From Diacronema lutheri (Eukaryota > Haptophyta > Pavlovophyceae > Pavlovales > Pavlovaceae), in NCBI GenBank assembly GCA_019448385.1, contig JAGTXO010000003.1, positions 124,001 through 188,000 of the forward strand: a stretch of DNA of 64,000 bases, in the 5' to 3' direction. The stretch's first letter is position 1. Every line of letters starts with the position of its first letter. Shown piece after piece: positions 29,269-53,885 of this stretch. The position numbers and the translations under genes are program-made. Below the pieces are notes generated by a model that did no database searches, had not been told where the DNA came from, and saw nothing but the letters and a program-made list of their open reading frames with translations.

Positions 29269-30420
29269 TCAAGCGTCACGCGCGCGCGCGGCCACGCCAA
29301 TGGCCGTCGCGCCCATGAGCAGCGCTTCTAGCTCTGCCCGCGCACCGTCCGCGACGCTCCAGCGCGCGCAGATGGCGGCCAGCGATTCGCCGAGCTGAGC
29401 GGCCGCGCGCGCCCTGCCGTCCGCCGCACTCGACGCGTCGGGCGCTGCGGCCGCCTCGTCGCCCGCCGGCGGCGCGTCGCCGCGCTCGTGCGCGCTCTGC
29501 TCCTCAACGGCTGCAACGCCCGACGCGTCGAGTGCGGCGGCGCGCGCAGGCGGCAGTTCGCCCGCCGGCGCGCCGGCCGGCGCGGGGGCAGCCGGCGCGG
29601 GGGCAGCCGGCGGCGCGTCGCCCGCCGGTGCGCCCTCCGCCGGCTCGCGCGCCGCGGCTACAGCGCACGCGCGCGCCTCGTCGACGGCGGCCTGCGCGGC
29701 CCCGACCGCCTCGCGGAGCCACGGGTGGGCGAGCATCGCGCTCATCCGGAGCCGCGCCTCGGGCTGCGCGACGAGCAGCGCGCGCACGAGTCCGCGCGCG
29801 TCTTCTGACACGTGCGCCCACGGCTCGGCGGCCATGCTGAATGAGGCGGACGAAACCGCCGCCACAAGCTCCTCTTCCGAGTCGCCAGTGAAGGGCAGCG
29901 TGCCACTCAGCACGACGAAGAGCAGCACGCCTGCCACGCAGGCGGCGCGCGGCGGGCCGCACGGCGCGCGGCTCTCAGCGCGGCGCACGGCGCGCGATGC
30001 GGCCGGCCGCTCGGCGCGCGCCGCGCTGCGAGCCGCGCGCACCGAGGCTCCACAGGTCCGACGCCGTGTCGTACGGCAGCCCGTCAGCCGTCTCGTCGTA
30101 CCACGTGAGCACCTCCGGTGCAACATAGTCCGGCGTGCCGCACAGCCCTGCGCGTGCAGCCGCGTGCAAACGTGGCGCGGGCGCGCGCGTCACCTCAGCG
30201 CAACTGCCGCCGCGCAACTGCCGCCGCGCAACTGCCGCCGCGCAACTGCCGCCGCGCAACTGCCGCCGCGCACGCGCAGCCCGCGCGCGGCGGCACACCG
30301 ACGAGCGGCGTGCGCGGCGGGTCGCAGGGCTGCGCGTAGCCAAAATCGATCAGCTTCGCGCAGGTGCGGCCCTCGTCGGCAAACATGATGTTCTCCGGCT
30401 TGAGGTCGCGGTGGTATATA
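29269..30420 (-). CDS. CaMK-like kinase, 3' half (gene split by the 23.5-kb insertion)
   Basis: C-terminal half of a kinase gene whose 5' half is at 54859-54052. Exon parts here are 30414-30299 (after the TATATA copy), 30147-30043 and 29930-29269, with GT-AG introns. They encode YHRDLKPENIMFADEG, LIDFGYAQ, LCGTPDYVAPEVLTWYDE, SDLWSLGVLLFVVLSG, the kinase end HPWLREAV and an Ala/Pro-rich tail. The glycine loop and ATP lysine are missing on this side: upstream of the tyrosine codon the sequence is not kinase but the inserted element. With the other half and one TATATA copy removed the exons sum to 1311 bp (436 aa) in frame. Unless excised or spliced around, this allele cannot make a kinase. Confidence 0.88.
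30188..30275. repeat. 12-bp tandem repeat in kinase intron
   Basis: GCAACTGCCGCC repeats about seven times in the intron 30148-30298, another example of intron-confined minisatellites in this genome. Confidence 0.9.
30415..30420. repeat. Left target-site duplication TATATA of the large element
   Basis: TATATA here and at 53873-53878 (copied again at 54052-54057 with a later small insertion) flank the inserted DNA. One copy belongs to the kinase codons Ile-Tyr. Confidence 0.8.
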
Positions 30421-30426
30421 CGACCC

Positions 30427-30832
30427 TTACGGGGCGTGCGAAGCCGCAAGCGGCTCGTGCTGAGGCTGAAGATCGCCATGAAGCGTTGTTCTCAGCAGGG
30501 TGTGGCAGGCGCGCTTCGTCGCGCCACCGGCTGCGCCGCCGCGCGGCGCCGCCACGCGCGGCGCCGCGTGCGCGCGCGCGCGCACGGCGGCGGCCGCGTC
30601 CTGTGCGCCACTGCGGCTCGCCCGTGCCCGCTTCGGGCCCGGGGGCGTGGCGCGCGTGCTCGGGCTGGCCGAGCCGCCCCGCCGCAAGGTCGCCGCCGAC
30701 CGGCGAGGGGCTGCGCCGTTCGCGGCTGCCGTGCTGACGCGACGCTGGCGCTTCGCCTCCGGCGCCGCGTCGCGTGCGGACGCGAGCGAACCTCGCGAGT
30801 TGCCGCCGGTCGTGCCGGTGCCGGCAGCGGCA

Positions 30833-30865
<33 letters not shown>

Positions 30866-32805
30866 TGTGCGGCAGCGGCTGCGGCACCGTCGGCGGCGCC
30901 GGCGGCACCAGCACCGTTGCCGCGGCCGCGGCCGCGGCCGCGGCCGCGGCCGCCGCTGCGTCCGCCGCCGCGTCCGCCGCCGCGTCCGCCGCCGAGGACG
31001 CCAACGCCGCTGCCGCTGGCGCCGGCGCCGGCGCCGGCGCCGGCGCCGCCGCCGCCGCCGCGGCTGCCGGCACCGCCGCCGCCGGCATCGCCGCCGCGGC
31101 TGCCGGCACCGCCGCCGCCACCGCCGCCGCCGGAACCGCCGCCGCCGCCGCCGCCGCCGCCGCCCGCCTCGTCTTCGTCCACCTGCAGCACGCCCTCGTC
31201 GTGCTCTCTCTCGCGACCGAGGGCGCGCTGCCAAAAGGCCTTGACGCGCTTGAAGCGGCCGGGCTCGGACGTGATGCGCTCATGCCTGCCGAGGTGGTCG
31301 GCGACCATGTCGAGCACATCGTGGTAGATGCAGCGCGCCGCCGTCCAGTCGCGGTGGTAGATGATGCCGCACGCGTCGCACCGCGTCGCCCGCCACGCGC
31401 CGCGGCCGCTCGGCGAGCTGCGCGCGTACGGGTGCAGCGTGCCTCCGCATCGCTGCAGCGGCGGCGGCTGCCCCGCCGCCTCGTCCGCCGTCGTCGGCGC
31501 GCCGTCGTCGGCGGGAGCGCCTGCGCCGGCGTTGGCGGCCGGCGCCGCGCTCGCAGCGGGCGCGCCCGGCACCTCGCGCAGCTGCGAGCAGCACTTGGAG
31601 CTGAGCGGCTCGGGCACGAGCGTCGCCGCGACGCCGCGCCGGCGCAGCGCGCACAGCACGCCGACGCCGAGCGCCGGCGGCTTGCCGCGCACGAAGCCGC
31701 CGCCGCGCGACCGGTGGAGCCAATCGCCAAAGAGCACGAGCAGCTGGTCTGGCCGCAGCCCTCGGTCGGTCGCGTGCGCGCGCACGATCCGCGCCGCCGC
31801 GCGCGCGCACTCGCGCCGGCTCGCGCCGCCGCGCCGCTTGCGCGCGCGCAGCCGCGCGCGCGCGCCGTACACGGGCAGCGTAGCCCGTCGCACGCGCTCG
31901 TGCGCGCGCGCGTAGGCGGCCTGGTCGTTCGCGCCGAGCGCGGTGCGCCCGCCGTGCGCCGCGCCGAGCTCCGCCTCGAGCGCGGCCGCCGTCGGCGGAG
32001 CACGCGGCGCGCGCGGCCGCGCGCCGCCCGGCCCCGACGGGCCGGCGCGCGCGCCCGGCTCGACGAGCGGCCGTTGCCGCGCGCCCTCGAGCTTGCTGCG
32101 CTCGCGCGCGTGCCCCGCGCGCGCGGCGCGCTCGCGCTGCGTGAGGCGAACCGAGGTGGGCTCGAGCCCGTGGCCGTTCGGCGCGTACGTCACGAAGCCG
32201 TCGGAGCCGGGGTCCACCGTGGCCGTCTTGAGGCCGTGCACCTCGATCGCCTCGGCCAGCTGCTCGGGCGTCGCCTCGTCGAACGTGCCGTTGGGATCGC
32301 GCCAATCGTCGAGGAAGGACTTGCTGCCGCCGGGCGGCGGCGGCTTGAACACCGGCACGACCACCTGCCAGGCGTGGCCGTTGTGGCGCAGGTACACCGC
32401 CGGCTGCGGTCCGGCGGACGCGGTCGCGGGTGGGACGGCGGTGCCGACATACGTGGGCCGCTGCTCCGCCGTCACGTCGCTGCCGGGCAGCTGCTGGCCC
32501 GTCCACCGCATCGCCCGCTCGTCGAGGCTGACGAAGTGGGAGAAGATCATGTCCCTGACGCGCGGGTCGCTGGTCGCGCTGTGCGGGTCGTCGTGCGGCA
32601 CGCCGTCGGCCGTCGGCAGCTTGCGCGCCCACTCGCGGACGAAGGCCTTGTCGTCCTCGTCGAGCAGGAGGTACAGGTCCTGCGCGGACAGGTCGACAAA
32701 GCGCTTCTGCATGCTCCCGCGCCGGGGGCAGAGCGCGTACGGCGGCGGCTCGCCGGTGACGTGCGTGTAGAGCATCGCGAGGCGCGCGAGCAGCGACGCG
32801 CCCAT
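30427..32805 (-). CDS. Fanzor-like RNA-guided nuclease (eukaryotic TnpB/OrfB relative)
   Basis: Open frame of 792 codons. It shows the RuvC and zinc-ribbon pattern of Fanzor/TnpB proteins. RuvC-I TATVDPGSDGFVTYAPNGHG has Asp198; then a basic region (RARKRRGGASRRECARAAARI); QLLVLFGDWLHRSRGGGFVR; VPEPLSSKCCSQL with Glu399 as the likely second acidic residue; and a ribbon with Cys405/406, Cys453, Cys476 and Cys479, ending in IIYHRDWTAARCIYHD with Asp486 (RuvC-III). The tail (550-792) is Gly/Ala-rich and then basic. Fanzors are known RNA-guided DNA endonucleases in eukaryotic mobile elements and large viruses. The stop codon ends 6 bp from the left element edge, as expected if the guide RNA runs off the end into host DNA. 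The frame may extend upstream through an intron containing the G-run at 32855. Confidence 0.78.
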
Positions 32806-32851
32806 CGCCGCCTTATCCGGCTGCGCGGCGCACGCAAGGGAAGGAAGGGGG

Positions 32852-32854
<3 letters not shown>

Positions 32855-32934
<80 letters not shown>
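32855..32934. repeat. 80-bp poly-G run (poly-C on minus)
   Basis: An uninterrupted run of 80 G. On the minus strand it is the pyrimidine tract of a probable intron just upstream of the Fanzor-like frame. Such long C-tracts before acceptors recur in this window (for example near 300, 4130 and 42725). Confidence 0.95.
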
Positions 32935-32935
<1 letters not shown>

Positions 32936-33205
32936 GGAGGTCGGGGAGCACGCCATCAGCGCCGTCGAGCGCTTCGCGCGCCGTGGCCCTGCTGCGCGCG
33001 CGCGCGGCACGTCGTCCGCGCGGCGCGCGCCCGTCCATACCCGGCCGCGGCGCCGCGCCGCGGAGCGCGCGCGCGCGGGGCGCGCCGCGGCACGCGCGCG
33101 CGCCGCGCGGACGGCGCGGCCACCGTCGCGCGGCCGGCCCGTGCGTAGCCCCCTCCGTCCCCGCGCGCGCCGCGCGGCGCGCGCGCGCGCGCGCGCGCGC
33201 GCACC

Positions 33206-35056
33206 GTCAGGAAGTAGTTGGTCGTGTGCCTGACCTTGGGGTCATCCGTGCTGTAGTCGCATGGGAGCACGAGCCAGTCGGCGTGCTGCGCGAGCGCGGG
33301 CGGCAGCCGCGGCGCCGCGCCGGCCGTGTCGCCGGACCACAGCAGCTTGAGCAGCGTCGCGACGTCCGCGTCGCGCTGCTCATTCGACGTGCGCGCGCCG
33401 CGCGGCTTGGCGGCCTCGCCCGCGTCGATCGCCGCGCGCAGCAGCTTGCGCAGCAGCTTGTACGCGACGCGGCGCGGGTGCATCTTGTACGCGGTGAAGA
33501 TCTTCTCCGCCTCGGCGTCGACGCAGCCTTTTAGCGAAGGGTGCGAGCGCGCCGTCGGCGCGTCGCCCTGCGACAGCCGGTCAATGTGCCGCTGGTTGCG
33601 CGCCCGCTGCGCCGCGTTGGCCTCGCCGAGCGGATGGCCGCACTTCTGGTCGGGCGGCAGCTCGATCTGGCGGATCAGGTTCTCCACGTCGTCCTCGCCC
33701 TTGGGGTAGCCCTTCAGCTCGTCGTCTGGGCGCTGCAGCTCGTCGCCGGGCGAGCACTGCCCGGCGTTCGGCAGCGATGTGTGCGCGCGGTCGTTGAGCA
33801 CGTTGTACGTCATGCGCGTGCTGGCGTTCGCCTCGTCCACGACGTGCATCAGCTTGACGCCGTACTTTGCCCGCCCGCGAAAGGCGCCGTCGCTGAGCTC
33901 CAGGGTCCGGTACTCCGTGTGCCAGCCCTTCGGCTTCTGCAGGCAAGCGATGCGCTTGCCCGTCGCGTCCGGCGGCTCGGCCGGCGGCTCGGCGCTCGCG
34001 CAGCACGCGCAGGCGGACGCGTTGGCCGCGCCGGCCGCCGGCGCGGCCGTCCGCGCGGCGCGGCGCGGCGTCGCGGCCGGCTCCGCGCACTCGCCGCACG
34101 CGAGCACGTCCCCGCCGACCGCGCCGCCCGCGCGCGGCCGCGCCGCCGCCGCGCCGCGCCCGGACGCCGGCGCGGTGCTCACCGGCGACTTGCGGAGAGC
34201 GGCCTCGCGCTTGGCCTCCGCGCGCAGCCACGCCTCGAGCAGCCAGCCGGCCGCCTGCGCGTCGCGCTCGCGCGGCCACACGCGCCCGGCGTTGCCCAGC
34301 AGGCCGCCGCGCTCCACGCGCAGCACGCACAGCGCGAGCGCGAGCGCCCACACGCCCGCGCGGCCGGCGGGCGGCACGTACGCACGCGAGCGCTCCGACC
34401 GGCGCAGCTGCTCGAGCGTCGCGTCGCCGCCGAACAAACGCGCGACGAGCCCGCCCGCCCAGCTTGTCGCCGCCGCGCCCGCCGCGCCATCGCGCGGCTC
34501 GCGCTCGAGCAGGAGGAACCGGCGCCAGCGGCCGCTCGGACCTGCGCCGTGCTCGTCGGCGGCGAGCAGGAGGAGGAGCTGCGGGTCGGCGCCGTCGCTC
34601 GGCGAGTGGACGAGCAGCAGCGCGTCGCAGTCGGTACCGTCGAGACGCTCGCGCAGCCGCTCTTGCGCGGCCTCGTGCCGTGCGTCGCGCGCGTCGAGCA
34701 GCGCGCGCGTCTCGCCCGGGCCGAAGAAGGCGCGGAACCCGCGCGCCGGGTCGCGCACCTGGGCGAGCACGCCGTCAATGGCGGCGGGCGTCACGACCGC
34801 ATGCTTGCCGCCCGATGCCTTGAGCTCGTTCAGGCACCGCGCACGAGCCTCCCCCGGCGTCGGCGCCGCCGACGCCGGCGCGGACGCGACCGGCTGCTGC
34901 GTCACCGCCGCGTCGCGCGCTCGCAGCTGCGCTGCCGTCTCGCGCAGGATGAGCGCAAACACCGCCGCGCGGTACTCGGCGAGCTGCGCCGTCGCGTGCA
35001 CGTTGAGCGCAAGCACGCTCGCCGCGGCAGCGAGCGCGCTCTGGTCGCCGCCGCCA

Positions 35057-35089
<33 letters not shown>

Positions 35090-35860
35090 ACGTCGGCGGC
35101 GGCGTCACGCGCGCCGAGCGCGAGCCAGGACATGACCACGACGCAGGCGGCGCGCGAATCCGCCTTGCGCTCGACGCGCCAGCGGCCGCCGACCACGCGC
35201 CCGTGCGCCGTCGGCTGCGCCGACCGCGCGGTCGCCGGCGCAGCGCCGTCGACGGGCGGAAGCGCGCGCAGGCGGAGCGCGCGCGCGAGCCCGCGGACGA
35301 GCTGCTCCGCCTGGCGCTCGATCTCCTTGGCGCGCTCGCGCACGGCGATCGGCTTGGCCCCCGTAGTGCGCTCCGGCGCGGCGGTCGGGTTGTAGTGCTG
35401 CACCCAGCCGCCCTCGCCGTCGCGCACGACGACCACGACGGCCGCGCCGACCCGCCGATTGGTGCTGGCGAAGAGCAGCGCGAGGTGCGTGCACTCGCCG
35501 AGGCCGTGCTCGTCCAGCGCGGCCTGCGCGCGATCGGGCTCGCCGCCGCCGTCGGCGACGGCGGCGAGCAGCGCGCGCGCGACGGCCGGTCCGGCCGTCC
35601 TCCACGGCCGGCCGGCTTTGTCCGCGGCGCGGTTGATCGCGCCGAGCTCGGCCTCGACGACGATCGAAGGCACCTCGGTGTACTTGCCCTGGAGCGCGCG
35701 CACGTCGTGCGTCGACAGCGGCCGCCCGCCACACGTGTACGTGAGCGGCGGACCGCCGGGTCGCGCCGCCGCGTCGACGCGCGCGGTGTCGGCCGCGAGC
35801 CGCGCGCGCGCCTCGGCATCGCGTCGCGCTTGCGCGGCAGCGGCGGCAGGTGCGGCGCGA
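33206..35860 (-). CDS. Element-borne coding segment with a second Ulp1-like module and repeated modules
   Basis: Long open minus-strand segment directly upstream of the Fanzor-like frame and perhaps part of the same transcript. It starts with STHDVRALQGKYTEVPSIVVEAE, later CTHLALLFASTN and GGWVQHYNP, then KADSRAACVVVMSWLALG, which resembles the Gln/Asp-Ser...Cys end of Ulp1-type (C48) proteases in degenerate form. Further modules of the same flavour follow (DALLLVHSPSDGADPQLLLL). A Cys-rich stretch with CGEC and CACC leads to a conserved-looking region (KGWHTEYRTLELSDGAFRGR, YPKGEDDVENLIRQIELPPD). The last 100 residues (KIFTAYKMHPRRVAYKLLRK) look like the N-terminal part of a nuclease. I recognise no confident whole-protein family. 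Confidence 0.45.
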
Positions 35861-35869
35861 CGCGGCGGC

Positions 35870-37590
35870 CGCGCGACTCGCCGGCCGGCTCCGCGCTCGG
35901 CGCGCCGGGCGCGCCGGCCGGCGCGCCCGCCGCGCGCGCGCTCGCGCCGCCGCCGCGCGCGCGCGCGCCGTCCGGCTCGGCCGCGTACACGAGCAGCAGC
36001 GCGCGGCCCTCGAGCGCGACCCTCGCGGTGCACGCGCGCCTGCTCGCGGCGGCAACGCGCATCCAGTCGCGATCGCCGGGCGCGAGGGCAGCGCAGGCGA
36101 CGAGCCGCTCCTTGTCGTCGCACGCGTCGCGCAGCACGACGGCGACCAGCCTGAGCACGGCGGCGGGCTCGGCGTCGGCGTCGGCGTCGGCCCCGTCCGC
36201 GGTCGGCTCGGCCGGCTCGGCGCCGCGCGCGACGCGCAGCGCGAGCCGCTCGGGCATCTCGAGCAGCGACTCGGTCGCGTCCGCGACGTGCACGACGACG
36301 AGCCGCGGCGGGTTGCGCACCCCGTGCGCGCCGAGCGCGCGCGACACGGCGGCGCTGGCGCTCGCGCCGCGCGCGTCGGCGGCGCGCAGCGCGACGAGCG
36401 GCCACGCGGCCGACGCGCCGCGCGCCGAGGGCGCGCCCGGCGCCGGCGGCTCGCCGCCGCGCAGCGCGCGCTCGAGCTCGTCGCTCGCGCCGCACGCGCG
36501 CAGCACGTCGAGCAGCGCGCGCAGCGCGCCGTCGGCCGACAAGCCGCGCGCCGTGCCCGCCGGCCAGCCCGCCGACTGCTCGAGCGCGGCGGCGAGCGGC
36601 GCGACGCGCGCCGACTCGGGCGCGCTCTCGTCATCGGGCTCGAGCGCGTTGTGCAGGCGCGCGAGCGCGCGCGCGACGGCCGCGGCGCCACTGTCGGGGG
36701 CGCGGCTCGCCGCGCGCACCGCGCGCCGCCAGGCCGGCACGAACATGAGCGCCGACACGAGCGCCGCGAGCGCGCGCGCCTCGCGCGCGTCGCTCGCGCC
36801 GAGGCGCGGCGGCACGCGCGCGGCGCCGCGCGGCGCGGTGCCTCGGAAGCGTGGGCTTAGCGTGTAGGCGAGGTGCTGCGGCACGCCGCGCGCCTCCGCG
36901 AGCGCGCGTCCGTCCTCGACCTCGCGCCACGCCTCCTCGATCGCCGGCGTGGCGCGCGCGAGCCAGTCGGGGTCGGCGGGCAGGTGGATCACGACGAGAA
37001 TCGGCGCCCAGTCCAGCCGCGGGTTCTTGTGACGGTCGGGCACGACCCACACGAGCAGCACCGTGCCCTCCGCGCCGCACGCCGCCTCGTAGATCCTGGG
37101 CTGCGAGCGCCAATCGGGCTTGACGCGCAGCGCCCACGCGTGTTCGATGGCAGCGGCGCGGTCGCCATCGAAGTGAACCGTCTTCACCTCGCCGATAACG
37201 GACCGGCCGGACCGCCAGCAGAACACCGCGTCCGCCGACCCGCCGGCGATGGCCGCGAGCGGTTCGGGCGCGGCGAGCCGCGGCAAGCCCTCGAAGACGG
37301 CAAAGTCCTCGTGCGCATTGTACACGCCGCCCCAGCCGTCGAGCGCGTACGCGCGCGCGGCCGCTCGTACCGCGTGCAACTGGTTCTCCACGCCCGACGT
37401 CATGTGCCATGTCGTCCCCGCGAAGCCGGGCTCGCCCAGCTTGGCCAGCACGACGTTACCGTACCCCGCGCCCTGCGTCGGGGCGGCGAGGCGGTGCATC
37501 TCCGCGCCGGTCATGACCTCCGGGCGCTGCTGCGTGACGATCGTGCCCGTCGCGTGCGCGTCGAGCGTGCCGACCACGGCGGGCGCGCGC
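35870..37590 (-). CDS. Element-borne segment with PD-(D/E)XK-like nuclease domain
   Basis: Open minus-strand segment of about 570 codons. The first part reads QQRPEVMTGAEMHRLAAPTQ, TTWHMTSGVENQLHAVRAA, then GSADAVFCWRSGRSVIGEVK followed by TVHFDGDRAA and VLLVWVVPDR. The acidic residue of SADAVF followed about ten residues later by GEVK is the D...(D/E)XK arrangement of restriction-endonuclease-like nucleases. This is family pattern-matching, not proof. The rest (LVALRAADARGAS, RLVAVVLRDACDDKERLV) looks like repeats of the modules in the neighbouring segments. It may belong to one very large gene with its neighbours; I do not attempt to join frames. Confidence 0.45.
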
Positions 37591-40500
37591 CCGCTGTGTC
37601 GTACACGCGCGCGTCCGCGTCGCCCTGTCCAAGCGCAGTGTAGACGCAGCGGCGTTCGCGTTCGAGCGGCGCCGAGCCACCGCCGTCCGCCGCCGCCGGC
37701 GAGGTTGGCGCCGCGCCCTCCGCCACCGCTCTCGTCGCCGCCGTGCCCGTCACCACCACCGCCGCAGCCGCCGCGCCCGCGCGTGGCGCGCACGGCGCCC
37801 TCGGTGCCGCGACGGCCGCCGCCGCCGCCACGACGAGCGCGCCCGCCGCCGCGTTCGCCGCCACGTGCGCCACCGGCGCGCCGAGCGGCGCCGAGCCACT
37901 GCCGCCCGCCGCCGCCGGCGGGGTTGGCGCCGCGGCCGTGGACGCGGCGGCGGAGGGCGCCGCGAGCGGCACGTCCCACCGCCAGCGATGCGCCGCAACG
38001 GCCACGGCCGCACGCTCGACACCGTCGCGCGCGTCGGGCAGGCCGGCGATGCGCGCGTTCGCACTGCGGCACATCTCGTCTGCGCTCGTGCAGCGCGCCC
38101 ACGCGTCGCCGAGGTCGTGGCACACGACCGCACGCGCGAGCAGCGCGAGCTCGAGCGCAAGGACGTGCGGCTTCGCGCGCGCGACGCCGCCGATCGCGAC
38201 GTGCGTCGGCTCCGTGCTGAGCAGCTCCGCGCTGCGCAGCTGGCCGACGTGCGCGCGCGCGATGCGCCAGTCGTCGTCGCCGCCGACGCGCGGCGCGACG
38301 AGCAGCGGCCTCGCGGGGGCGCCCGCCGCGCGCGGCGGCAGCACGACGAGCAGCGCCACGACCCGTCCGCCTGTGCCATCGCGCAGCGCGACGACGAGCC
38401 TGGGGCGGAGTGACGGCGTCGACCGGCGCGTGCGTTTGCGGACGCCGTCGGCGTCGGCCGCGCTGCGCGCCTCCGCGAGCACAGCGTCGCCGTCGATCGC
38501 CGCCCACGCGCCGTCGACGTGCGCGCGCGCGAAGAGCGGCGCGAGCTCGGCGGCGGCGAGCGCGGCGCACGCCGACGGCGCGTCCGCCCCGACGCGCAGC
38601 ACGTCGAGCGCGTCGCGGAGCGGCGGCGCCGTGTCCGTCGCCCACCGCCACACCTGCTCGCCGTGCGCGTCGAGCGCGCGCGCGACGGCGCACAGGCGCG
38701 CCTCGTCGGCCGCGCCGACCACTCGGCGCGCCGGCGCGTGCGGCTCGACGCGCTCGTACAGCGCGACCACGGCGAGCTCGCGGGCCTCGGCCGCCGCGCT
38801 GCCAGCGTTGTCTCGCTGCTTGCCGCCGCCGTCGACGCGCCACCAGCCGCCGTCGGGCGCGGGCGCGAGCACGGCGCAGGCGTCGCGCTTGCGGCCGCGG
38901 CGCTGGACGAGCACGCTCGCCAGCGCGAACGTCGCGTCGGGGCCGCCGACGGTGCCGAGCACGAGCGCGCCGCCACCGCCGCCGCCCGGCCCGCCGAGCT
39001 CGACCGGCTCCTTGTCGGCCGACGGGCGGTCGATCGCGACCAGCAGCGCACGCGGCGCGCTCGAGAGCCGCACTCCGCCGAGCAGCTGGGCGACGTCGCG
39101 CACGCCCGGCGCGCCGCGCTGCTTCGGCCGCGGCGCGACGCGCAGCATCGTGAACGGCGCGTCGGCCGAGCCGTCTTCGGCGGCGCAGACGCCGGAGAAG
39201 AGCTGCCAGTCGGGCAGGGCCACGTGCAGCTCGGCGACGAGCCGCTCGGCGACGCGGCGCGCGTCGCGCAGCTCGTCCGTGCGCCGCCGCGAGCGCTTGG
39301 CAGCGCAACGCGGATCGCGCAGCGCGAGCAGCAGCTGGCGGAGGCGCAGCCGCGCGCGCACGTCCGATAGCCGCGCGACGCGCACCAGCAGCGAGCGCAG
39401 CACCTCAAAGGGCGCGCGCTTCGCGTCCAGCGCGTCGCCGCGCGCGCCGCCGGACGGCGCAAAGGCGAGCGCCAGCTGCTCGCGCACAGTCGCGGCGGCC
39501 GCGAGCAGCTCGAGCACCGCCTCGGGGCTGGCCAGCGCGAAGTCCTCTGGGGCTGCCGACGGCGAGCCTTGGCCGCCGCCGCCGCCGCCGCCGTCGCCTC
39601 CGTCGCCGCCGCCGCCGCCGTCGCCGTCGCCGCCGTCGGCGGAGTCGTCGTCGGTGTCGTGACCCGCATCGTCGTTGGAGAGGTCGTCGTCCCCGTCCTC
39701 CGCGTCCTCCCCGTCGTCAGCGGTGGTGGCGTCGCCATCGCCCCCGTCGCCCTCGCCCACGCCGAGGCTGCTGAATGGTCGGTGCCCCCACGCCGAGGCG
39801 GCGCGCCGCTGCGGCGCACGCGGCGGTGGCGCTCGCGACGGCGGCCTTGACGCCGCCGCGCCGCGCGGCCTGGCCGCCGTCGACAGCGCGCGGCCTGCAG
39901 CGCCCGTGAGCGCGTCGAGCGCGGCCGTGCGTGCGATGCGGTCGGCGGGCGCGCACAGCGCCGCCTCGACGGCCCGCAGCAGCCCGCCGGGCGCGGATCC
40001 GCCGACACTTGCACCGCACGCCTCGGCGAGCCGCGCGGCCTCGGCGAGCCACGCGGCCTCGTCGGTGAACGCGCCGCAGCGCCTGGCGCCGTCGTCGAGC
40101 AGAGCGCCGACGGCGGCGTGGAGCGTGCGCGCGCGGGTCTCCTCGTACGCGGCCGTCGTGAGTCGCGTTAGGCGCGCGTTCAAAGCCTTCTTGATCCCGA
40201 CAAGGACATTCGCGCGGCGGCCCGCCGTCGGCGCTGCGCTCGCCGCGACCTCGGCCGCGAGTGTTGCCGCGGCGAAGCAACACTCGTTCCCACTCTGCGC
40301 GGGCGCCTTCAAGGCATCGATGGGCGGCGCTGGGATGCCGATGCGCTGGGCGAGCGTCGTGATGAGCTTGCCGGCTGCCGTGGCGTGCGCCGACTCGCCA
40401 TTGCCCAAGCTGAGCGAATCGGCGTGCAGGGCGAGCGCGGCGCCGTGCGGCGCGCCGCGCTGCGCGGGCGGCGCGAGGAGCAGGTACGCCGCCGTCCAGT

Positions 40501-40813
40501 GATCGAGGCCGCTGGACGCGCGGAGGCAGAGCGGTAGCACGACCACGAGCACCTGCCCAAGCCGGTCCGCATCCGCGCATGCTTTGCCCAGGTTGCGCAG
40601 CGCCACCTTGAGCGCATGCTTCGAGCACGCCTTGAACTCCACCTTGACCACGCTCGGGCCGAGACTCTCGCCATGCAGCAGGGCGAGGACGCACTCGGGT
40701 GGGACCACGTGGGGGTGGCGCACACCGTTCGCCACGGTGGTGCTGAGGGCCAGCGAGAAACTGTCCGAGCTGCCCAGCCCGCCGCGCAAGGCGTCCTTCA
40801 CGGAGTCCTCCAT
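37590..40813 (-). CDS. Element-borne large protein with N-terminal Ulp1-like (C48) cysteine protease
   Basis: Starts at ATG 40813 and stays open for over 1000 codons. Residues 105-179 carry HW (His105), HADSL (Asp132), Gln173 and CCF (Cys178/179) in the order and spacing of the Ulp1 catalytic set (His...Asp, about 41 residues to Gln, 6 to Cys). Before it, VVKVEFKACSKHALKVAL could be a separate nuclease-like strand-helix. The middle is an Asp/Gly-rich linker (DDDSADGGDGDGGGGGD), followed by Ala-rich modules (GGWWRVDGGGKQRDNAG; DDWRIARAHVGQLRSAEL). Ulp1-type proteases occur in several DNA transposon and virus groups, where they may process proteins or strip SUMO. Function here is unknown. Confidence 0.5.
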
Positions 40814-41850
40814 CTGCAGACTGTGGACACGTCAGTGTCCGGATGGCGGCCCGGATGATACTTGGGAGAATTTACATGATGCGCTGGAGAATGCCCCGCT
40901 CTCCCACAACCAGGACCCGCCAGCGCGCCGAGCCTACTCGTTTGCCCGCGCCGCCTCTCTTTGCGCGCCCGAGCGCGGCCTCCGAGCGCGGCCGACGTCC
41001 TCCGGGGGCGTGCATGTGGCTGCTCGGAGGGGCTGCGACGCGGCGAAAGCTCGCTGCGCGGCCGCAACGTGAGCGCGCGCGCGCGGCCGCGCGCCGGCCT
41101 GCGCTGCTCTGCACGGCCGCGCGCCGGCCTGCGCAGCCTCGTCGCGCAACGTGAGCGCGAGCGCGCGCGCGGTGAGCTCGGCAGATGGGTGCGCGGCGGC
41201 GTTGGCGGCGGGTGCGGCGGCGGGCTGGGCGGCGGGTTCGGACGGAGAGTGTCGGGGAAGAACGGGGCGCATCCTGGTTGGGAGTCGGACGGCGCCCACC
41301 ACGCGCTGGCGGATCCTGGTTGCCACCACTAAACCCCCCCCCCCCCCCCCCCCGGAGACGAGGACCAGGGGCATGGCCGACTCGCTGCGCCGCACAGCGC
41401 GCGGCGCGCGGCATGCCGCGCGACCTCGAGCACATCCAGCCGCGCTCCGCCCACGCAACGCGCGCAATGCCGCGTTGCACTGCGGGTGTGCACGTGCGGC
41501 TCTCACGCGCACTGCGTTGCACGAACGGCATCACGCCACCCAGCTGCGTCCGGACCACGCGCCGCGCGCAGGCGACGCACACAGGGGCGCGCCGCGCCGC
41601 GCGTGCGCGCCCTCGCAACCGTTGCAGCACGCTCTGCCTTGCACTGCGCCGAGCCGCCGCGCGCTGTGCGCGTGCGTGCAGGGCGCACGCGTGCGACGAA
41701 GCGCGCGCGCGGCGAGGCGCGCGGGCGGCTCGCTGCGCGGGCGGCAACGCGCCCAGCTGCGCCCAGGCCAGGCGCGCGCCCGCGAGTGCCACCGGGACGC
41801 ACTGCCCCCGCCGGGGTCGCCGCGCGCTCTATGTGTGCGCTCGCGCGCTG
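40814..41850. other. GC-rich spacer inside the element, no gene recognised
   Basis: Upstream side of the Ulp1-like gene. An imperfect inverted repeat is visible: CAACCAGGACCCGCCAGCGC near 40907 and GCGCTGGCGGATCCTGGTTG near 41303. A C-run is at 41334-41353. Arg/Ala-rich open frames here have no recognisable domain and look like composition artefacts. Confidence 0.5.
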
Positions 41851-42199
41851 CGAGCGCGGCGGAACGTTCGTGCATGGCGCGAAGAGCGCGGCACCCGAAG
41901 ACGGCTGCCCCGAGCCCGCGCCGGGTGGCAGCGAGCGGCGGCACCTCCTCGGCGAGCCCGCCCCGCGCCTTCCCCTCCACGCGGCGTTTTGAGGCAGACG
42001 GACACGCGCCCACACTGCGACTGGGCACGCTGCTCGAGGCAGACACGCACCCAACGCGCGCGCACCACGCGCCCGCGTCGGCGGGCCGGTGTGAACGAGC
42101 GAGAGCTCGGTGTCGCCAACGGGGGCACGGGCGCGAGTTCGGTCCGCCTCTCGACGGACGCAGGCGACGCTGCCGGGAACTTCCCCGACGCCTGCACAT

Positions 42200-42722
42200 C
42201 CAGGGCTTCGAGGCACAGAGCTGGGCAACAGTGCCGCTCGTCACCGATGAGGCGGCCAAGCTCGCTATCCTTGCTGCCCTCAGCTCCACCAAACAGCCGG
42301 GCGACCCAACGGTTCGTGATCGCCTGGCCGCCAGGTGCGAACCGCGCCCATGCAAGCGCTTCACCCGCATTCTCCGCCCCGCTGCGGACGTCCGCCTGCC
42401 GGCCGCGAACACGGCCGGTGCGCGCTGCCGCCTGGCCCAACACGAAAACCCGCCCGCCCCCGAGGCCGCAGGTCCTACCTGCCCAAGCGCAGCCCGACGG
42501 CACGCAGACAGCCCGCCTTGGCAACCGACTCGTGCGCGAGCTCTCCGCCCTCCACAAGAGCCTGCCCCACGCCACCGCCGACGCGGAGCCAGCGCAGCCG
42601 ACGCCCCTCCGCGACGCTCGCGCCGCAAGGCGCAAGGGCCCCGGCGAGACGGCGTCAACCAAGCCCGCCGCTGGCACAGCGCCGGCACCCGGAGCCCACC
42701 CCAAGCCCCCGCGCACGCCTCG

Positions 42723-42759
<37 letters not shown>

Positions 42760-43550
42760 ATCGGCGGACCGATTGCGTTTTGGTGCGCCAGGCTCAATGC
42801 GCCATCGCAGTGGCGGGCCCGCAGACGCAGACGCTGACATGCCCAACGCTGGGCACTGAGGCCGCAGGCCGGCCCTCCTGGATCTGGCGGGCAGCGGGCC
42901 ACGCGAGCCTCGCACTGACCGTGGCGGTCGCTGCCACCGTGATAGCTGCGGGTGTGGCGGCCTTGGCCCCAACCCCATCATCCGTCTTCATCCCCGCCCT
43001 GCTCGCGCTCGCGGCAACGTCAGCAATCCCTGCACCGGGATCCGCCCCGCGAAGTCCACACAAGACTTATCCGCGCTGCACGCCAGCCGCGCGCGCCGAC
43101 GCGCGCCGCTCCCACACGCTCACCTCAGTTTCCGCGGGCGGCCCAACGCCCCCCCCCCCCCCCCCCCCCCCCCGGCAGGCGGCCATCGAGCCGCATTAGC
43201 ACACCCGCCCGGGGCCTCCCGCCGCACCCGCAGCGGCTCGGCGCCTTGAATCCTCCCGTCCCCCGGGGTGAGGCCTCCAACCCGGGCCCAGCGCGCTCCG
43301 ACTGCCTCACGCTCGCCAGCGCCAACCTCGGCGGCATGGTAGGCCCCGAGCGAAAAGCCGCACTTCTCGCCGTCCTCGTCAGGCGCAAGTACGATGTCCT
43401 GCTCCTACTGCCGACGCGGCTCTCGCGCGCGCGGACTACCGCGCCGGGCAGATCGCCGCAGACGCTCGTGAGTGCACACGTGCGGACAAGGCGCACACGC
43501 TCGACGTCCAGCCAGCGCACGTGCACGTGCACGCCACTGGTCACATTTAA
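42200..43550 (+). mobile_element. Non-LTR retrotransposon (LINE) 5' fragment with start of endonuclease domain
   Basis: On the plus strand, after hydrophobic segments (ALTVAVAATVIAAGVAALAP) and a C-run, the frame reads VPRGEASNPGPARSDCLTLA followed by SANLGGMVGPERKAALLAVL and RRKYDVLLLL. The NPGP motif followed by a strand, an Asn and Lys-rich helix, then D-(I/V)-L-L-L, is the usual beginning of the AP-endonuclease domain of LINE ORF2 proteins. The rest of the endonuclease and all of the reverse transcriptase are missing, so this is a short fragment. The left limit is uncertain; 42200-42800 is assigned by weak continuity only. Confidence 0.5.
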
Positions 43551-43620
43551 GCGTCCGTGCTCGCCCACGCGAGGTGCGAAAGGAGGAAGAAGGTAGGGAG
43601 AGTGGTGTGTGTGTGTGTGT

Positions 43621-43655
<35 letters not shown>

Positions 43656-43959
43656 CGGGGGGGGAGGGCACAGCGGCCGCCGGAGACGAGGACGCACTCA
43701 CCGCTGTTGGCAATGCGCGCGTCACGGAGACAACTTGGCGGGCCTCGCACGCAGCTGGGCCGATCGCCGCCGTAGAGATGTCTGCAGCCGTCTCCGCGAT
43801 GCCGATCGTCGCATCTGTTGGCACCGCTGCCATCTGCCGCACCCGCGGCCAGGCTGCCGGCAAGGTCGGCGCGTCGGGCTCCGAGCTCGGCCACGCAGGC
43901 GATGCGGCCGACGGCGGTGACGCTGAGCCCAGCGCCGGGTCCAACGGCTCCACGTCGAG

Positions 43960-45070
43960 CCGGCTGTAAAAGAGCATGCTCGCACCACTTGCCCACGCCA
44001 GCGCGTCGGACTCAGGCACGTTGTAGATCTGCGCGGGCAACGCGCGTGCGTGCGGCAGGTGCGCGCGCGAGCTTTCAGGCCACGCGCGCGTGCCGCGCGG
44101 GAGGACGGGGCGGTTGCGGCTGCGCTCGACCGCCGGTCGCGGCACCGAGCGACTGTGCGCGCCGCCGCACGTTGTAGTCGTCGCACGGAAGCCAAGCCTC
44201 GTTGCGGAGCACGATGGCGACAAGGTGCCCGCTCATCGGCCCCTCGCCCGCGTGCACCAGGCCGGCGACGAGGAGGTGGTCGCGCCCGCCGAGTAGCAGC
44301 AGCGGCGCGCACACGAGCGCGCGGTTGTTCTTGCACTGCGGGCCATTGCCGCGCGTCGTGCGTGGCGCCTCGACAGCAATGCTGGCTGGCGTGAGCACGC
44401 CCGGGTGGCACGCGTTCGTGTTGCCATCCCGCGGCGGCCCAGCGGCGCCCCCCAGAGCGTGTGCAAGCGCGCGCGCCGCATCGCCGCCGATGCTGACGAG
44501 TACGGCGATGCCCTCGCCGGACTCTGAAGGCACGGCGATCTGCTCGAGCACTGGCCCGACGCGTGTGTCGGCTTCGAAGGCCGCAGCGAGCCCGGGCACT
44601 CGGCCGAGCAGCAACCGGAAGAACTCAGCGGCATCCTGCGGCGTCCTTCGCGCGCCACGGCCCGAGATGACGTCAATGACGGACACAAGACACAGCTGTG
44701 TCGGCGCCCTGGTGTCCTCGATCAGCGTGCCAAAGTCCCGAAAACGCGCCCTCTCGACGCTGTTGGCACGGCGCGAAGCGGAGCGAAGCATCGCACGGAG
44801 CACGTTCAGGGCGAAGAGCGATTGCATAAGGACGGTCGTGTAGCACGCGTTGCCCTCGTTTTTCGCGCCTGCGCCGCGCCGCGCAGCGCCGGGTGTGCGG
44901 GGAGCGCGCGCACGGTTTGCGGCGGGGTGGAGGGAGGCTGGCTGGGCGCGCGCCGAGCCCGGCAAGCCGTGCAGGCGCTCACCACGCGGCACGCCGGGCT
45001 TTCTCACCGGCCACATCGGGCCGTCAAACGCGTCTTCCACAGGCTGCCGACCGACGACGTAAAACTTGCT
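43960..45070 (-). CDS. USP-type ubiquitin carboxyl-terminal hydrolase in the element
   Basis: Peptidase C19-like core. Main exon about 44868-44171: the Cys box NEGNACYTTVLMQSLF, the helix motif TPQDAAEFFRLLLGRVPG (QDA-EF of USPs) and the His box SGHLVAIVLRNEAWLPCDDY. A further exon from about 44028 gives SDALAWASGASMLFYSRL, the family's closing strand (YmLfY). An upstream part at about 45060-44960 (KFYVVGRQPVEDAFDGPMWP) may be the first exon. USPs remove ubiquitin. The core is about 290 residues, near the minimum for the family. It may be cargo of the element that acts on host ubiquitin signalling; a captured host gene is the alternative. Confidence 0.7.
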
Positions 45071-46332
45071 CAAGGCGCTGCGCCGTGCACGCGCCATGCG
45101 CGCGCTGTTGCGGGCTGCGCAGCAGGGACGACGGGGGAATTGGCGAGCGACGGTTGGGCGCAGATCAGCGTGGTGGCGCGGCAAGACGAGCGCGCGCCGG
45201 GCGCCTGGCGCGGAGGCGCCCCGCGCGAGGACGCGAGCCGCTTCTCGCACCGGACGGGCGCCCACGCGCAAGCCGGCTTTCGAGGGCTGGTGGATGGTGG
45301 CAGATGCCGAAACGGACACATGGAATGATGCGTCGGCGGCGCGAGCGCGGGACGATCTTGCCCGGGCAATTGTGCGCACGCTGCCAGCGCGCGTATGCGT
45401 GCGCATGGAGCGGGCGGCGCGCGCGTTGCGCGTGACGGGGCGCCGAGCGGCACACCGGCGGGGACGCGCTCGCCGCTGCCGTGGCATCGTACGCTGCCTG
45501 CGTGCTGGCCCGCACGCACGTTGCCGGCGCGAGGGGACGGCGAGTGCGCCTCGGCCGAACAGGCGCGAACGTTACGCCCGAGCGCGTGGCCGGGCCCCGC
45601 CGACTGCACGCAGCGCCGGCCCAGGCGCGCATCCGCCCGACGCGGATTTGGACGGCGCATCGACCGGCACGCCAAGCGTCTGCGCCCGCCTCGCGGCCGG
45701 TCGCGCCGGCCCCTCTTCGGCTCGAGGCCGCACGTCCGCCGCGCGCCGCTTCGGCACTCGGCGCGGCGCTCCCGGAACGCGCATGGCACACGCGCGGTGC
45801 GCGGGCACGCCCGCAACGCGCCATTCCAGCGCGAGCAGTTCGGCAAGCTTGCAGCGCGCGAGCAGCCGGGCATGTGCCGCGGACACACAGTTCGCTGTGT
45901 GCGCCGGCCGCGGCGACACGGCGTAGCGGCGCGAGGCTGGCCGCCGGGGCCACGGGCGTACTGCCGTGGCGCGACGCCATGGTATGAGCATTAAATTCAT
46001 CGGGGGGGGGGGGGGGGGGCGTTGTGCGCACTTGGCGCGCGAGTAGTGCGAGTGGCGGGCGAGCCTCGTCGCCCACGGAGCCCGCCCCCGGCTCGGCGGT
46101 GCGCCGCCTGCTCGCCGGGTCGCGCACCGCCGTCGCCGCCGCTGCGCACTTGCCCAGCTTGCCGGCAGGCGGCAGGCGGCGGCGACGGCGGCGGCGGCGG
46201 CTGCGGCGCGAGCGCGACGCCGGGCGGCGGCAGCGCCGACGGCACGCGCGCAGCGGCGACCCACGCGGCGGCGGGCGGCGCGCCGGCTTGAGGCCCCTGC
46301 ACGCCGGCCGCATTGGCGCCGCCCTGCGCGCC
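45071..46332. other. GC-rich spacer in the element, no gene recognised
   Basis: Both strands have only Arg/Ala/Pro-rich open frames without domain motifs. A G-run is at 46001-46019. I see no supported gene. Confidence 0.5.
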
Positions 46333-49000
46333 CTAGAAGGGCGCGCAGGTACGCGGGCCGGTCGCGCGGCGCGCGGTGCTGGCGAGCACCCGCCGGCTGC
46401 GCGTCGGCGCGAGCGGGGCGGCGGGCGTCGCGCCGGCGGGTGCTGGCCAGCACCGCGCGCCGGCGGCGCGCCCGCCGCCAGCGCGCCGCCCGCCGCCGGC
46501 GCCGCGCGCGCCGTCCGCGCCGCGCCCGCCGCGCTCGCCGCCACCGCGCGCCGCCGCCGCGCATTCGCGCGCGGCGGCGACGGCGGCCGCGGCGAGCGCC
46601 GCCGCCGCCGCCTCGCCACCGCTGACCGCGCGGAGCACCTCTTTGAAGACGACGGTGCGCGTCACGAGGTCCGGGCCGAGCGCAAAGCGGACGCGCGACG
46701 TGTGCCCGACGCGCGAAGCGGCCACGTAGAGCTGGCTGTGCGTGAAGCACGGCTCGGCGAGCCACACGCCCGCGCACCCGAGCGCTTGCCCCTGCGCCTC
46801 GTTACGCCGGCCGCACCGGGAAACTGGCGGCGCATCCGCACAAGCGCGAACGTGCCGTCGTCGGGCGAGTGGTGGTCGACACGCGCGACGAGCACGGTGC
46901 TGTCGCGCCCGGTGGCCGCGCCGGGGCGTGCGCACCCGAGCAGCCGGCCGCCGGCGCGCACGCCGCGCACGATCAGCCCCGTGCCGCCGCACAGCCCCTC
47001 GCCGGGCGAGAGGTTGCGCAGCAGCATCACCACCATCCCGGGCTTCAGGTCGAGGACGCGGTGCGGCATCTGCGCGTGCTCGAGCGAGTCGAGGAATTCG
47101 ACCGACGCCAGCGCAATCTGCTTGCCCGCCCCGTCGTCGCGCCAGCTCGTCCGCCGACGCGCACCTCGCCGCCGCGCCCGGGAAGCGGCCGATCGCCAGC
47201 CAGTTGATCCGCGCCACGTCCGTCTGCTTGGCGCAGAGCACCGCGCGGTCGCACAGCGAGCCGTCGTCGGTCCAACACGTCGCGCCGTGGACAAAGTCGT
47301 CACGAGCTCCGTCGGGTAGGCCGAGCCGACGCGGATGGGGACGCCGCCGACGGCCTCGGGCAGCTGCACGGGATCGAGCGGGAATGCGCCGGGCATGGCC
47401 CCGGCCGCCGGCACCGCCGCGGGAAAGGCGCCGTCGCCGGGGCTGCGCAGCAGCTCCGCCCACTCGCCCGCGCCGAGCGCGTCGCCCGTGTCGCGCGCCG
47501 CGCTCGAGGCGCGAAAGTTCTCGACCAAGGCGTGCTGCCGATCGTGCTGCCACGGCGCCGAGTACTCGAGGCAGGAGCGCACGATCTGCGCGCGCGAGCC
47601 GCGCCGCACCACCGGCAAGCACTGGCGAAAGTCGCCGGCGAGCAGCAACGTCTTGCCGCCGAAGCGCTCGTCGACGCCCGTCACGTCGCGCAAACACCGA
47701 TCAGGCGAGTCGAGGTGGCACCGCTTCTGCATCGGCGCCGCGCCTCGTCCCACACGACCAGCCGCCGCGGCGGCCACGGAGCGCCCGCGCTCGGAGCGAG
47801 GCACGACATAAAAGGGCTTGCCCGTCCGAGTCGGCGCCGACGGGCACCTGGAAGGTCGAGTGGAAGGTGCGGCCGTCGGGCAGCAGCGTGGCGGCGACGC
47901 CCGAGGACGCGCACACGACGACCGCGTGCCCATCCGCGCGCACGGCGGCGATGATGGCGCGCTCGACGAACGTCTTGCCCGTGCCACCCGGCGCGTCGCC
48001 AAAGTGCAGCCGGTCGCCCACGCCGCGCAGCGCCGATTCGACGACCGCGCCGTGGAGCGCGCGCTGCTGGCCGGTCTCGGCCATCGCCGCGCGCGCCGCC
48101 GCCGCGCTCGCAGCCCGCTCGGCGCGATCGTAGCCCGGCGCGCGCGCGAGCTCGCGCCCGCCCGGCCCGGCCGGCGCGCGCGCCGTGCGCAGACCGGCCA
48201 CCACCGCGAGCGCCGCCGCGCGCTCGCGCTCGTCGGGCACGTACAGCCCCGTGGAGTCGAACGTGTCGGCCCAGGCGGGCACGCCGTACGAGGCGAAGGC
48301 GTCCGAGCCGGGCTGCGGCCGCTGCTCGGCGCGCTTCAGGAGCATGACCTCGCACACGTTCCACTTGGTGCCAAACATCGAGCCCGTGAGCCCCGTGTAG
48401 ACGCAGTCGAGCTGCGTGGCGATGGCGCAGACGTCCTCGTGCCGGATCTCGTCGACCGGTTTGCGCCGCGCGTTGACGAGCGGCACGACGCGCTCGGAGC
48501 CCGCCCACGTGAACGTGCGCGTCGACATGTTGTGCCGCGTGTGCGCGAGCGTGCCGTCCTTGATATTTGGGCTTGACGGTGGGCGAGAGCTTGCCGCGCA
48601 CCTCCTCCTTCGAGAGGCCGCGCGTGTCGAGCAGCTCCTTCTGGCGCGCGTGCACCGTCTCGACGCGCTGATCGTCGATGGCGCGCAGGGCGCCAAAGTA
48701 GGCGTCCATCTGCGCGAGCGGCGCGCCTTCGATCGGCAGCTCCTTGTCGGGCACGCCGACCGTGTACGCCGCCTTGTCGACGTCCGTCGGCCCGTACATG
48801 GTGCCAAAGTTGCCGTCGCCCGTGAGCTCGGGCCAGTCGACGACGCAGGGCGGCGTGACGAAGGCGAGCGCGCGGCAAGACGGCCAGTAGCTCAGCTTGA
48901 CGACCGTGCGCGCCTGCTCGCTCGGCTTGACCGGCCGCATGCTCACGATCTCGCAGTTGACGAGCGCCGCGTCGAAGGCGCGCAGGTCGATGGCGGCCAT
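46333..49000 (-). CDS. Pif1-family DNA helicase with an unrecognised N-terminal domain
   Basis: Starts at ATG 49000. The first 150 residues (VNCEIVSMRPVKPSEQ, FVTPPCVVDWPELTGDGNFG, TMYGPTDVDKAAYTVGVPDK) have no family I can name and could be a DNA-binding domain. The Pif1 helicase motifs follow: Walker A DAPGGTGKTFVERAI (near 47980), CASSGVAATLLPDGRTFHST, GGKTLLLAGDFRQCLPVVRR, KPGMVVMLLRNLSPGEGLCG and CFTHSQLYVAASRVGHTSRV at the C-terminal end. Pif1 helicases unwind DNA 5' to 3' and occur in Helitrons and in large DNA viruses and their relatives. The motifs are spread over more than one reading frame; splicing or decay could explain it. No Rep/HUH domain is seen. Confidence 0.75.
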
Positions 49001-49199
49001 GGTCGTTTTGCGCGGGAGATCACGCTGCAGGCGGCTCCACAGTGGGTTCGAGAAAAAAAAAACTTAAAAAAGCTGGGCCAACGGTCAGTCGAGCGCCACA
49101 AGCAACCCTCGGGAGCCGGTGGCCCAACCCAACCCAACGATCTTCGTCGCCACCCTTCGCGCGTTTTCCGTTCGCGCCCAAGCAGACAATGAGACCACA

Positions 49200-49484
49200 A
49201 TGTCGGTGCTGCTCGGCGCGATGATGGGCCTCAGCGGCTCGGTGGCGATCGTGCTCTACGTGCGCGCGCGACGTCGCGAGGTGCAGCACGGGCGCGTGGC
49301 GACGCCGCGCATCATCCAGCGCCAGCTCGAGCTGCAGCAGCCGTGGGGCCGGCCGGACGAGGCATCCGTCGCCTCGCGTGCCGAAACGCCGGGCGTCGAG
49401 GCCGCGTCGCGCTCGGTGCGCGACGCGGCGCCCGAGCCGGACCCGGACGAGGGCTACGTGCGCGTGGCGAGCGCGGCGTTCTGA
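49200..49484 (+). CDS. Small single-span membrane protein, unknown
   Basis: 94 aa from ATG 49200. One hydrophobic helix (VLLGAMMGLSGSVAIVLYV) is followed by a basic stop-transfer stretch RARRRE, then an acidic, disordered tail ending DEGYVRVASAAF. It lies 199 bp from the divergent helicase start, so the two could share a promoter (AAAAAAAAAACTTAAAAAAG near 49053). No family recognised; a one-exon gene this short could be spurious. Confidence 0.4.
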   Translation: MSVLLGAMMGLSGSVAIVLYVRARRREVQHGRVATPRIIQRQLELQQPWGRPDEASVASRAETPGVEAASRSVRDAAPEPDPDEGYVRVASAAF

Positions 49485-49566
49485 GGCGCGCACGACGTCG
49501 CCCAGCCAGAGCAGCCCGGGGCGGGGCGAGTCCGGCTGCGCGGAGGTCCGGCTCGAGCGGGCGGGC

Positions 49567-50718: not shown

Positions 50719-50833
50719 GTTCTCCAGTCACTAAAATCTTCGCGACGATCTTCGCTGCTCGCGTCAAGTGACGGTCGCGACTGCCCGTCACAGCGTGAGA
50801 CAGTGACGGTGGCGACGACGACGATTTCGTCAC

Positions 50834-51950: not shown

Positions 51951-51971
51951 ACCCTGATCGTGCGTTGCTCG

Positions 51972-53832: not shown

Positions 53833-53885
53833 TCTCAGCCTTACACTGGTCGGACCAGCCCGGACCGCGCCCTATATAGCTGGGG

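Follow-up and report, generated by a model that had tools for sequence, protein, structure and literature searches.

In the haptophyte Diacronema lutheri, a giant transposon that is present in many copies and lacks terminal inverted repeats (TIRs) carries, at its right end, the last exon of a Fanzor1-related nuclease gene; in the 64,000-nucleotide stretch of genomic DNA analysed here (the window, G000:C4:124001-188000), one copy splits a host kinase gene at a TATATA target site. We consider it rather probable that the right end of this element also supplies a guide RNA and that the nuclease cuts DNA at sites designated by TATATA.

Limits, target site, copies and cargo of the element

Homology between copies ends at about 30414/30415 and 53872/53873, delimiting an element with the ends GGGCG... 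and ...GGTCG (Table 1) that is flanked on both sides by TATATA, as had been read from the letters alone. This hexanucleotide occurs three times in the window against 0.03 expected, the third occurrence being at 54052-54057. Between the two ends, no inverted repeats were detected apart from short, chance-like matches. A left edge at 54051, initially favoured because the sequence there weakly resembles the right end in inverted orientation, was ruled out because the majority of left-end matches (40 scored) end near query position 480, that is, at about 53879. In the same region, CCCCCAGCTATATA at 54052-54065 has a twin at 53873-53886, with extra sequence between them that resembles a separate short repeat; the segment 53879-54057 (about 173 bp) resembles a short interspersed repeat (CTNACGGCGCTTACGTCAGGACAGCGG) that is also found beside the left ends in loci L053 and L061.

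Table 1. Features of the element and of the split host gene, in window positions
Feature	Position	Strand	Evidence or remark
Host kinase, catalytic loop and C-lobe (IYHRDLKPENIMF...)	29272..30420	-	sequence, gene model
TATATA at right edge, target-site repeat	30415..30420	.	TATATAC in 24/28 copies
Whole element, 23,452 bp; 5' (left) end 53872, 3' (right) end 30421	30421..53872	-	homology limits between copies
Terminal hairpin CGCCCCGTAAGGGTCG	30421..30436	-	fully paired form CGACCCGTAAGGGTCG in 6/28 copies
Right-end 82 nt, three predicted hairpins; candidate guide-RNA scaffold or DNA signal	30421..30502	-	14 distinct sequences, 28 copies
Fanzor1-related nuclease gene, last exon (RuvC, zinc ribbon, low-complexity tail)	30427..32820	-	frame, Pfam, A1, hhalign
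Intron, GT...AG, poly-C tract ahead of acceptor	32821..33204	-	GT/AG in 29/29 readable sequences
Upstream exon, open frame	33205..36630	-	5' limit not fixed; coding phase shifts near 35.85 kb
Further coding signal in two other frames, possibly same gene	35850..41000	-	phase GC
Ubiquitin carboxyl-terminal hydrolase-like frame	44078..45571	-	PF00443 9.9e-10
PIF1-type helicase pieces, two overlapping frames	46665..48891	-	PF05970 2.3e-18, 2.2e-19; PF21530 (2B domain) 2.7e-13
Small open frame near left end, coding composition	52303..52848	+	no family
Left-end palindrome GTACGACCCGGGTCGTAC	53815..53832	-	17/20 left ends
Left-end hairpin CTGGTCCGACCAG	53846..53858	-	CTGGTCCG[AG]CCAG in 19/20 left ends
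TATATA at left edge	53873..53878	.	20/20 fetched left ends; 179 exact CTATATANGGCGCGGTCCGG in genome
Host kinase, N-lobe side; last exon before insertion ends 54190 (donor GGGTACGT)	54190..55306	-	PF00069 7.2e-16

The TATATA that received the element is located at the start of the catalytic-loop exon of the kinase gene, the two parts of which now lie on either side of the insertion. When the flanks were joined with zero to four TA units at the assumed donor, the reading frame was kept with zero and three units only, and three units yield LHAQAIYHRDLKPENIMF / SLHAQAIYHRDLKPENIMF, the usual kinase spacing; to judge from this reconstruction, the host therefore most likely had a single TATATA, which is now present once on each side. 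A 4-bp duplication of TATA at this site was ruled out as it breaks the reading frame; it fits the right end of the major family (see below) better.

In the genome searched (43,492,796 bases, 103 contigs), a 521-bp probe gave 38 matches: 26 of them, counting that of the window itself, at 92-100%, a single one at 83%, six at 74-76% and five short ones. Right-end stretches were fetched for 36 of the 38; an anchor at the edge was obtained for 27 of them and for the window (n = 28), but not for the remaining nine. The 28 right flanks begin with TATATAC in 24 cases, TGTATAC in two, and CATATAC and TATAGAG in one each. A site related to that of L023 but without an insertion lies within the L020 flank (...GGCATAGAGC...), showing that ATAGAG on the right-hand side belongs to the host DNA. 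With a left-end probe, at least 45 matches were obtained (40 of 562 candidates scored); TATATA lies outside the end in all 20 left ends fetched and is preceded by C in 18. The 43.5-Mb genome contains 179 exact instances of the left-end pattern CTATATANGGCGCGGTCCGG (90 forward, 89 reverse; none for the backward control); if all these elements were full-length, they would correspond to about 9% of the genome, an upper estimate rather than a count. Variants of this pattern are a TGTATA form (twice) and an ATAGA form (once, not at the L023 copy), and searches for the right ends belonging to three deviant left ends found none. Among ten left and right ends paired by position, the two sides differ in one pair (TATATA/CATATA). 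Given the predominance of TATATAC and the single kinase among the 28 right flanks, the insertion target is (C)TATATA(C) and the guide, if there is one, would be different in each copy.

The D. lutheri relatives of the window nuclease comprise a subfamily at 74-76% (six matches; the 75% subfamily), the more distant L041-L044, the major family at 46-47%, and the L081 family. The right flanks of the major family start with TATAC in three of four cases and with TAACG in the fourth. One element of the 75% subfamily (L071, on contig C5) is about 6.8 kb long and retains the left 1.65 kb and the nuclease gene. Two left ends in opposite orientation, C46:327345 and C46:377447 (L047, L054), have the same flank and could represent an inverted duplication or an assembly palindrome; six contigs (C1, C6, C8, C12, C26 and C29) start, within their first 1.4 kb, inside a major-family nuclease gene, possibly reflecting assembly breaks or subtelomeric copies. 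The genome paper gives the repetitive fraction of the D. lutheri genome as 22.9%; the words transposon, transposable and Fanzor do not occur in the portion of that paper covered here (PMC8379373).

The cargo of the element includes PIF1-type helicase and ubiquitin hydrolase-like frames, and the major-family copy L065 has a chromodomain (7.9e-13) upstream of the nuclease. The frames between 36 and 41 kb contain motifs that, by eye, look like Ulp1 protease and a PD-(D/E)XK nuclease; Pfam returned no match in these frames. No transposase was identified in the element, and the element frames scanned encode no PolB, integrase or capsid protein. A less GC-rich part of the element (49566-50725) contains nested inverted and direct repeats with 95-100% identity.

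Element ends and the role of the nuclease

The observation that the nuclease gene ends 6 bp from the element edge, made in the sequence-only reading, holds for the window and extends to its relatives: the stop codon is at this distance in 16 of the 23 close copies for which the right edge was found (window included), and the exon length is a multiple of three in 18 of the 23, partly owing to slippage in triplet repeats. Three of the five anchored copies of the 75% subfamily (L035, L036, L039) have their stop codon 69 bp from the edge, and the other two have an earlier one. Together with the terminal hairpins and TATATA, which resembles a target-adjacent motif (TAM), this geometry makes RNA guidance from the right end plausible. 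The SpuFz1 RNA consists of a 75-nt right-end scaffold followed by 14-15 nt of flank (PMC10432273).

Under the mechanism that we propose, the terminal ~80 nt at the right end, in all likelihood continuing across TATATA, would form the scaffold of a guide RNA, and the next host bases would serve as the guide. Because the first seven bases of the flank are nearly constant, the scaffold is expected to extend across TATATA and the guide to begin with the following C, in a manner similar to the adjustment of the RNA boundary by IS607 TnpB (PMC10711439). The nuclease would recognize (C)TATATA as the TAM and cut the empty site on sister or homologous DNA, and repair of the cut would restore the element or copy it there. 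The guides of TnpB and Fanzor derive from each copy's own flank, so that a copy would target no empty site but its own and any guide would be private to that copy.

The signature of a structured RNA at the right end is faint. Two of the 22 predicted pairs are changed on both sides, both changes deriving from one subfamily split, and five of the 22 are broken in one or two of the 14 sequences. Folding compared with shuffled sequences yields z-scores of -1.1 for the window, -2.9 for L010 and -0.5 for L035, with -0.75 and 0.09 for the major family; the RNAalifold covariation term (0.33) is not favourable, and no Rfam family matches positions 30300-31300.

The hairpins could instead be DNA signals. 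It is possible, if doubtful, that no guide RNA is used, that the nuclease is a passenger or has some other role, such as opening the DNA at the ends, and that the element moves by a single-strand mechanism with its own PIF1 helicase, as Helitrons or IS200-like elements do. The presence of the helicase within the element and of hairpins at both ends, with no inverted repeat found between them, accords with this alternative, and so does the apparent exchange of the nuclease gene. By-eye pairing placed eight left ends 20.0-20.8 kb from major-family nuclease genes of matching orientation, and in one such copy (L066) a 3-kb left piece is, in pieces, 93.6-98.3% identical to parts of the 47.9-53.9 kb region of the window, up to where the PIF1 frame starts. 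At least this element thus has a left end in common with the window element and carries a different Fanzor-like gene, so that the nuclease looks exchangeable. However, no Rep domain (PF14214) was detected in the element, the sole match in the genome being on contig C63 (a diverged Rep is possible), flanking copies of TATATA do not conform to the Helitron pattern, and the catalytic triad and zinc-binding cysteines are kept in six aligned nuclease sequences.

The guide-RNA mechanism can be extended to a more speculative and, taken as a whole, unlikely proposal, namely that this element typifies a new class of giant TIR-less transposons with hairpin ends that combine PIF1 with protein-turnover and chromatin domains. 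The Fanzor, embedded in a large protein, would be directed by a right-end RNA, with the scaffold across TATATA and the guide starting from the host base that follows, to cut empty sites that bear TATATA, the elements having thereby been copied to well over a hundred, and the Fanzor half would be exchanged between elements with the same left half.

The nuclease gene, its relatives and the split kinase

The interval 30421-32805 of the sequence-only reading does contain the nuclease frame at the edge (792 amino acids at 30427-32805, minus strand) but covers no more than the final exon of a spliced gene that extends further upstream, within the 23,452-bp element. P0001 starts at an inner methionine (32805) within this exon, whereas the gene models P0002 and P0003 span the intron junction. 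A GT-AG intron of 260-401 nt was present in all 29 sequences in which both ends were found (28 fetched loci and the window); eight further loci, in which the donor pattern was not found, are outside this count. Upstream of the intron, the minus-strand coding phase continues to ~41 kb through three successive frames that may belong to one gene with the nuclease exon; the 35850-41000 part gave no Pfam match. The public gene model KFE25_007303 (P0002, 29272-45016), which maps onto the window in six pieces, is a chimera of the ubiquitin hydrolase, element exons and the kinase C-lobe.

The RuvC residues named in the sequence-only reading, D198, E399 and D486 of the frame, are indeed present, and correspond to D203, E404 and D491 in exon numbering. 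In an alignment of six sequences (A1: window, L035, L039, P0007, P0008 and L041, the other five being 34-64% identical to the window), this triad and cysteines 411, 458, 481 and 484 are invariant, and the triad remains so once L081 is added. Both the triad and the four cysteines are kept in 19 of 20 sequences with an exact exon start and an open frame longer than 515 amino acids (window included), the exception being L020, in which the frame changes. As for the TnpB-like zinc ribbon, the four conserved cysteines bear it out but the CxxC...CxxC form does not: the first knuckle has a single cysteine, followed by 'RC' about 46 residues later, and the strict pattern is matched by none of the five sequences tested, but is matched by L081. 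The published Fanzor motif, D-X(125,275)-[TS][TS]-XX-C ... RD, as given in part of PMC3627910, is found in the window frame, with 203 residues between D203 and S407, SS-KC-C411 and, five residues after C484, RD490-491.

The Fanzor-like character of the frame is supported by profile comparison with L081 (G000:C85:60000-64000), a canonical Fanzor1-like gene of the same genome that contains the strict Fanzor motif and scores 40.9 bits with PF07282: hhalign aligned A1 with L081 over 293 columns (98.3%, E = 1.3e-14). A profile including L081 (A4) retrieved Guillardia theta Fanzor1 from the PDB as the best match (E = 0.0076), followed by an unrelated dTale (0.015); the 16 rows besides the first are eight OrfB/IS605/TnpB-like/Cas12 entries, one annotated only as Transposase, and seven unrelated ones, dTale among them. 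A1 itself gave six PDB matches (E 0.29-0.64), five to OrfB/IS605 and one named Transposase only, and L081 matched the Spizellomyces Fanzor over 267 residues (E = 0.095) in the second row, behind a fucosidase (0.083). Searches of the PDB with single sequences were less telling, with no match up to E = 10 for the core, only low-complexity matches for the whole frame, thioredoxin-type entries (0.4) for a shortened core, and a fibrinolytic enzyme (0.11) ahead of Cas12f1 (0.19) for the major-family core. With PF07282, single sequences gave E = 0.003 for the window frame and 0.001 for its core (18.1-19.6 bits, below the 26.3 cut-off); L035, L041 and P0008 are likewise below it (22.9, 18.3 and 11.4 bits), and the major family is above it (27.2 bits, 4.3e-6). 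At least 20 genome matches to PF07282 score 40.0-44.5 bits (150 of 306 candidates scored) and probably belong to the L081 family. Three protein searches, each with about 8000 candidates scored, recovered only D. lutheri gene models in the first two (two and three proteins) and, in the third, P0007 (96% to the major family, source ena) and P0008 (46%, source lgn), from contigs that could be genome or transcript, along with P0009, a D. lutheri SAM-domain gene model. Among viral contigs searched with A1, 26 matched the pattern and none was confirmed. In view of the weak single-sequence scores, the supportive relatives and the unusual zinc knuckle, the nuclease is, on sequence criteria, a divergent Fanzor1-related enzyme and not a canonical Fanzor. 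AlphaFold models of it are too poor for a fold search (pLDDT 40.7 and 44.7 for two models).

It is very improbable that the open frame is degenerate or arose by chance in DNA of 80% GC and that its motif match is accidental. The low-complexity tail and the single-sequence PF07282 score could be read in that way, as could the dN/dS ratio, which for the window against the 75% subfamily is ~1.1, an unreliable value (GC3 is near saturation) that nonetheless shows no constraint; frame-keeping indels fall mostly within triplet repeats, where slippage preserves the frame regardless. However, the invariant triad and cysteines in sequences this divergent, the hhalign match, which strongly disfavours a chance frame, and the intron boundaries conserved in all readable sequences argue against it.

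The idea that the element homes by RNA guidance to kinase catalytic-loop exons, prompted by the IYHRDLKPEN motif that adjoins the window copy, is practically excluded and must be considered wrong, given that kinase HRDLK is encoded in only one of the 28 right flanks, the window's own (first 150 nt, three frames each), and that no second site combining TATATA with the kinase target exists within three mismatches (TATATACCACCGCGACCTCAAG matches the window site and three others, all with three mismatches and without TATATA). Thus, TATATA recurs at nearly all copies, but the sites are otherwise unrelated, and the kinase exon is a chance landing place of the window copy. In the L038 flank, the letters HRD appear, though not within a kinase motif. 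The right flank of L031 looks, by eye, like the N-lobe part of another kinase and encodes 18 residues similar to the N-lobe of the kinase at 25651-27039.

Comparison with known systems

The Pfam TNB cut-off is passed at no fewer than 148 places in the 43.5-Mb genome (148 of the 150 scored; 306 candidates), which fall into several families with near-identical copies; the species is therefore well suited to studies of how Fanzors contribute to transposons. The many copies that share one candidate scaffold next to different flanks are suited to showing whether guides come from flanks. With its variant zinc ribbon and long protein context, the nuclease also extends the diversity known among Fanzor-like enzymes.

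The element resembles Helitrons in encoding a PIF1-type helicase and in having a hairpin next to the 3' end. Helitrons, however, produce no target repeats and have 5' TC and 3' CTRR ends; in contrast, the D. lutheri element is flanked by TATATA repeats, ends in other bases and has no detected Rep domain. Capture of Fanzor genes by Helitrons is known (PMC3627910). Unlike Polintons, the element lacks long terminal inverted repeats. The terms Fanzor and PIF1 do not occur in the portion of the giant-transposon paper covered here (PMC6431247). Among the matches listed in searches of the open-licence literature, no title on Fanzor in haptophytes, algae or giant transposons names this family, and none on Diacronema or Pavlova contains the word Fanzor.

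In SpuFz1 and GtFz1, as described in part of Saito 2023 (PMC10432273), the guide RNA consists, as proposed for the D. lutheri element, of a right-end scaffold followed by flank and may overlap the gene end, and the TAMs are short, e.g., CATA and TTAAN; guide RNA and cutting have been demonstrated for these proteins, whereas they are hypothetical in D. lutheri. With the Fanzor1 proteins of eukaryotic transposons (Bao and Jurka 2013, PMC3627910, in part), the D. lutheri nuclease shares the RuvC D...E...D core, [TS][TS]xxC, the RD motif and the location of the gene inside a transposon, but it lacks the CxxC of the first knuckle, is encoded by a spliced gene, apparently as part of a much larger protein, and has a low-complexity tail that runs to the edge. 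The closest described relatives of the element are MCi-5 and MCi-2 of Mucor, unclassified TIR-less Fanzor elements found at 5 and 11 loci, respectively, which also have short AT-rich direct repeats (the 6-bp ATTTAT in MCi-5) and, in the case of MCi-2, modules exchanged between elements (PMC3627910, in part). Compared with these, the D. lutheri element has a length of 23 kb, TATATA as the repeat, PIF1, a ubiquitin hydrolase and, in the major family, a chromodomain, and its left end is present in 179 exact copies. It is new with respect to described Fanzor elements in its size, copy number, cargo and altered zinc ribbon.
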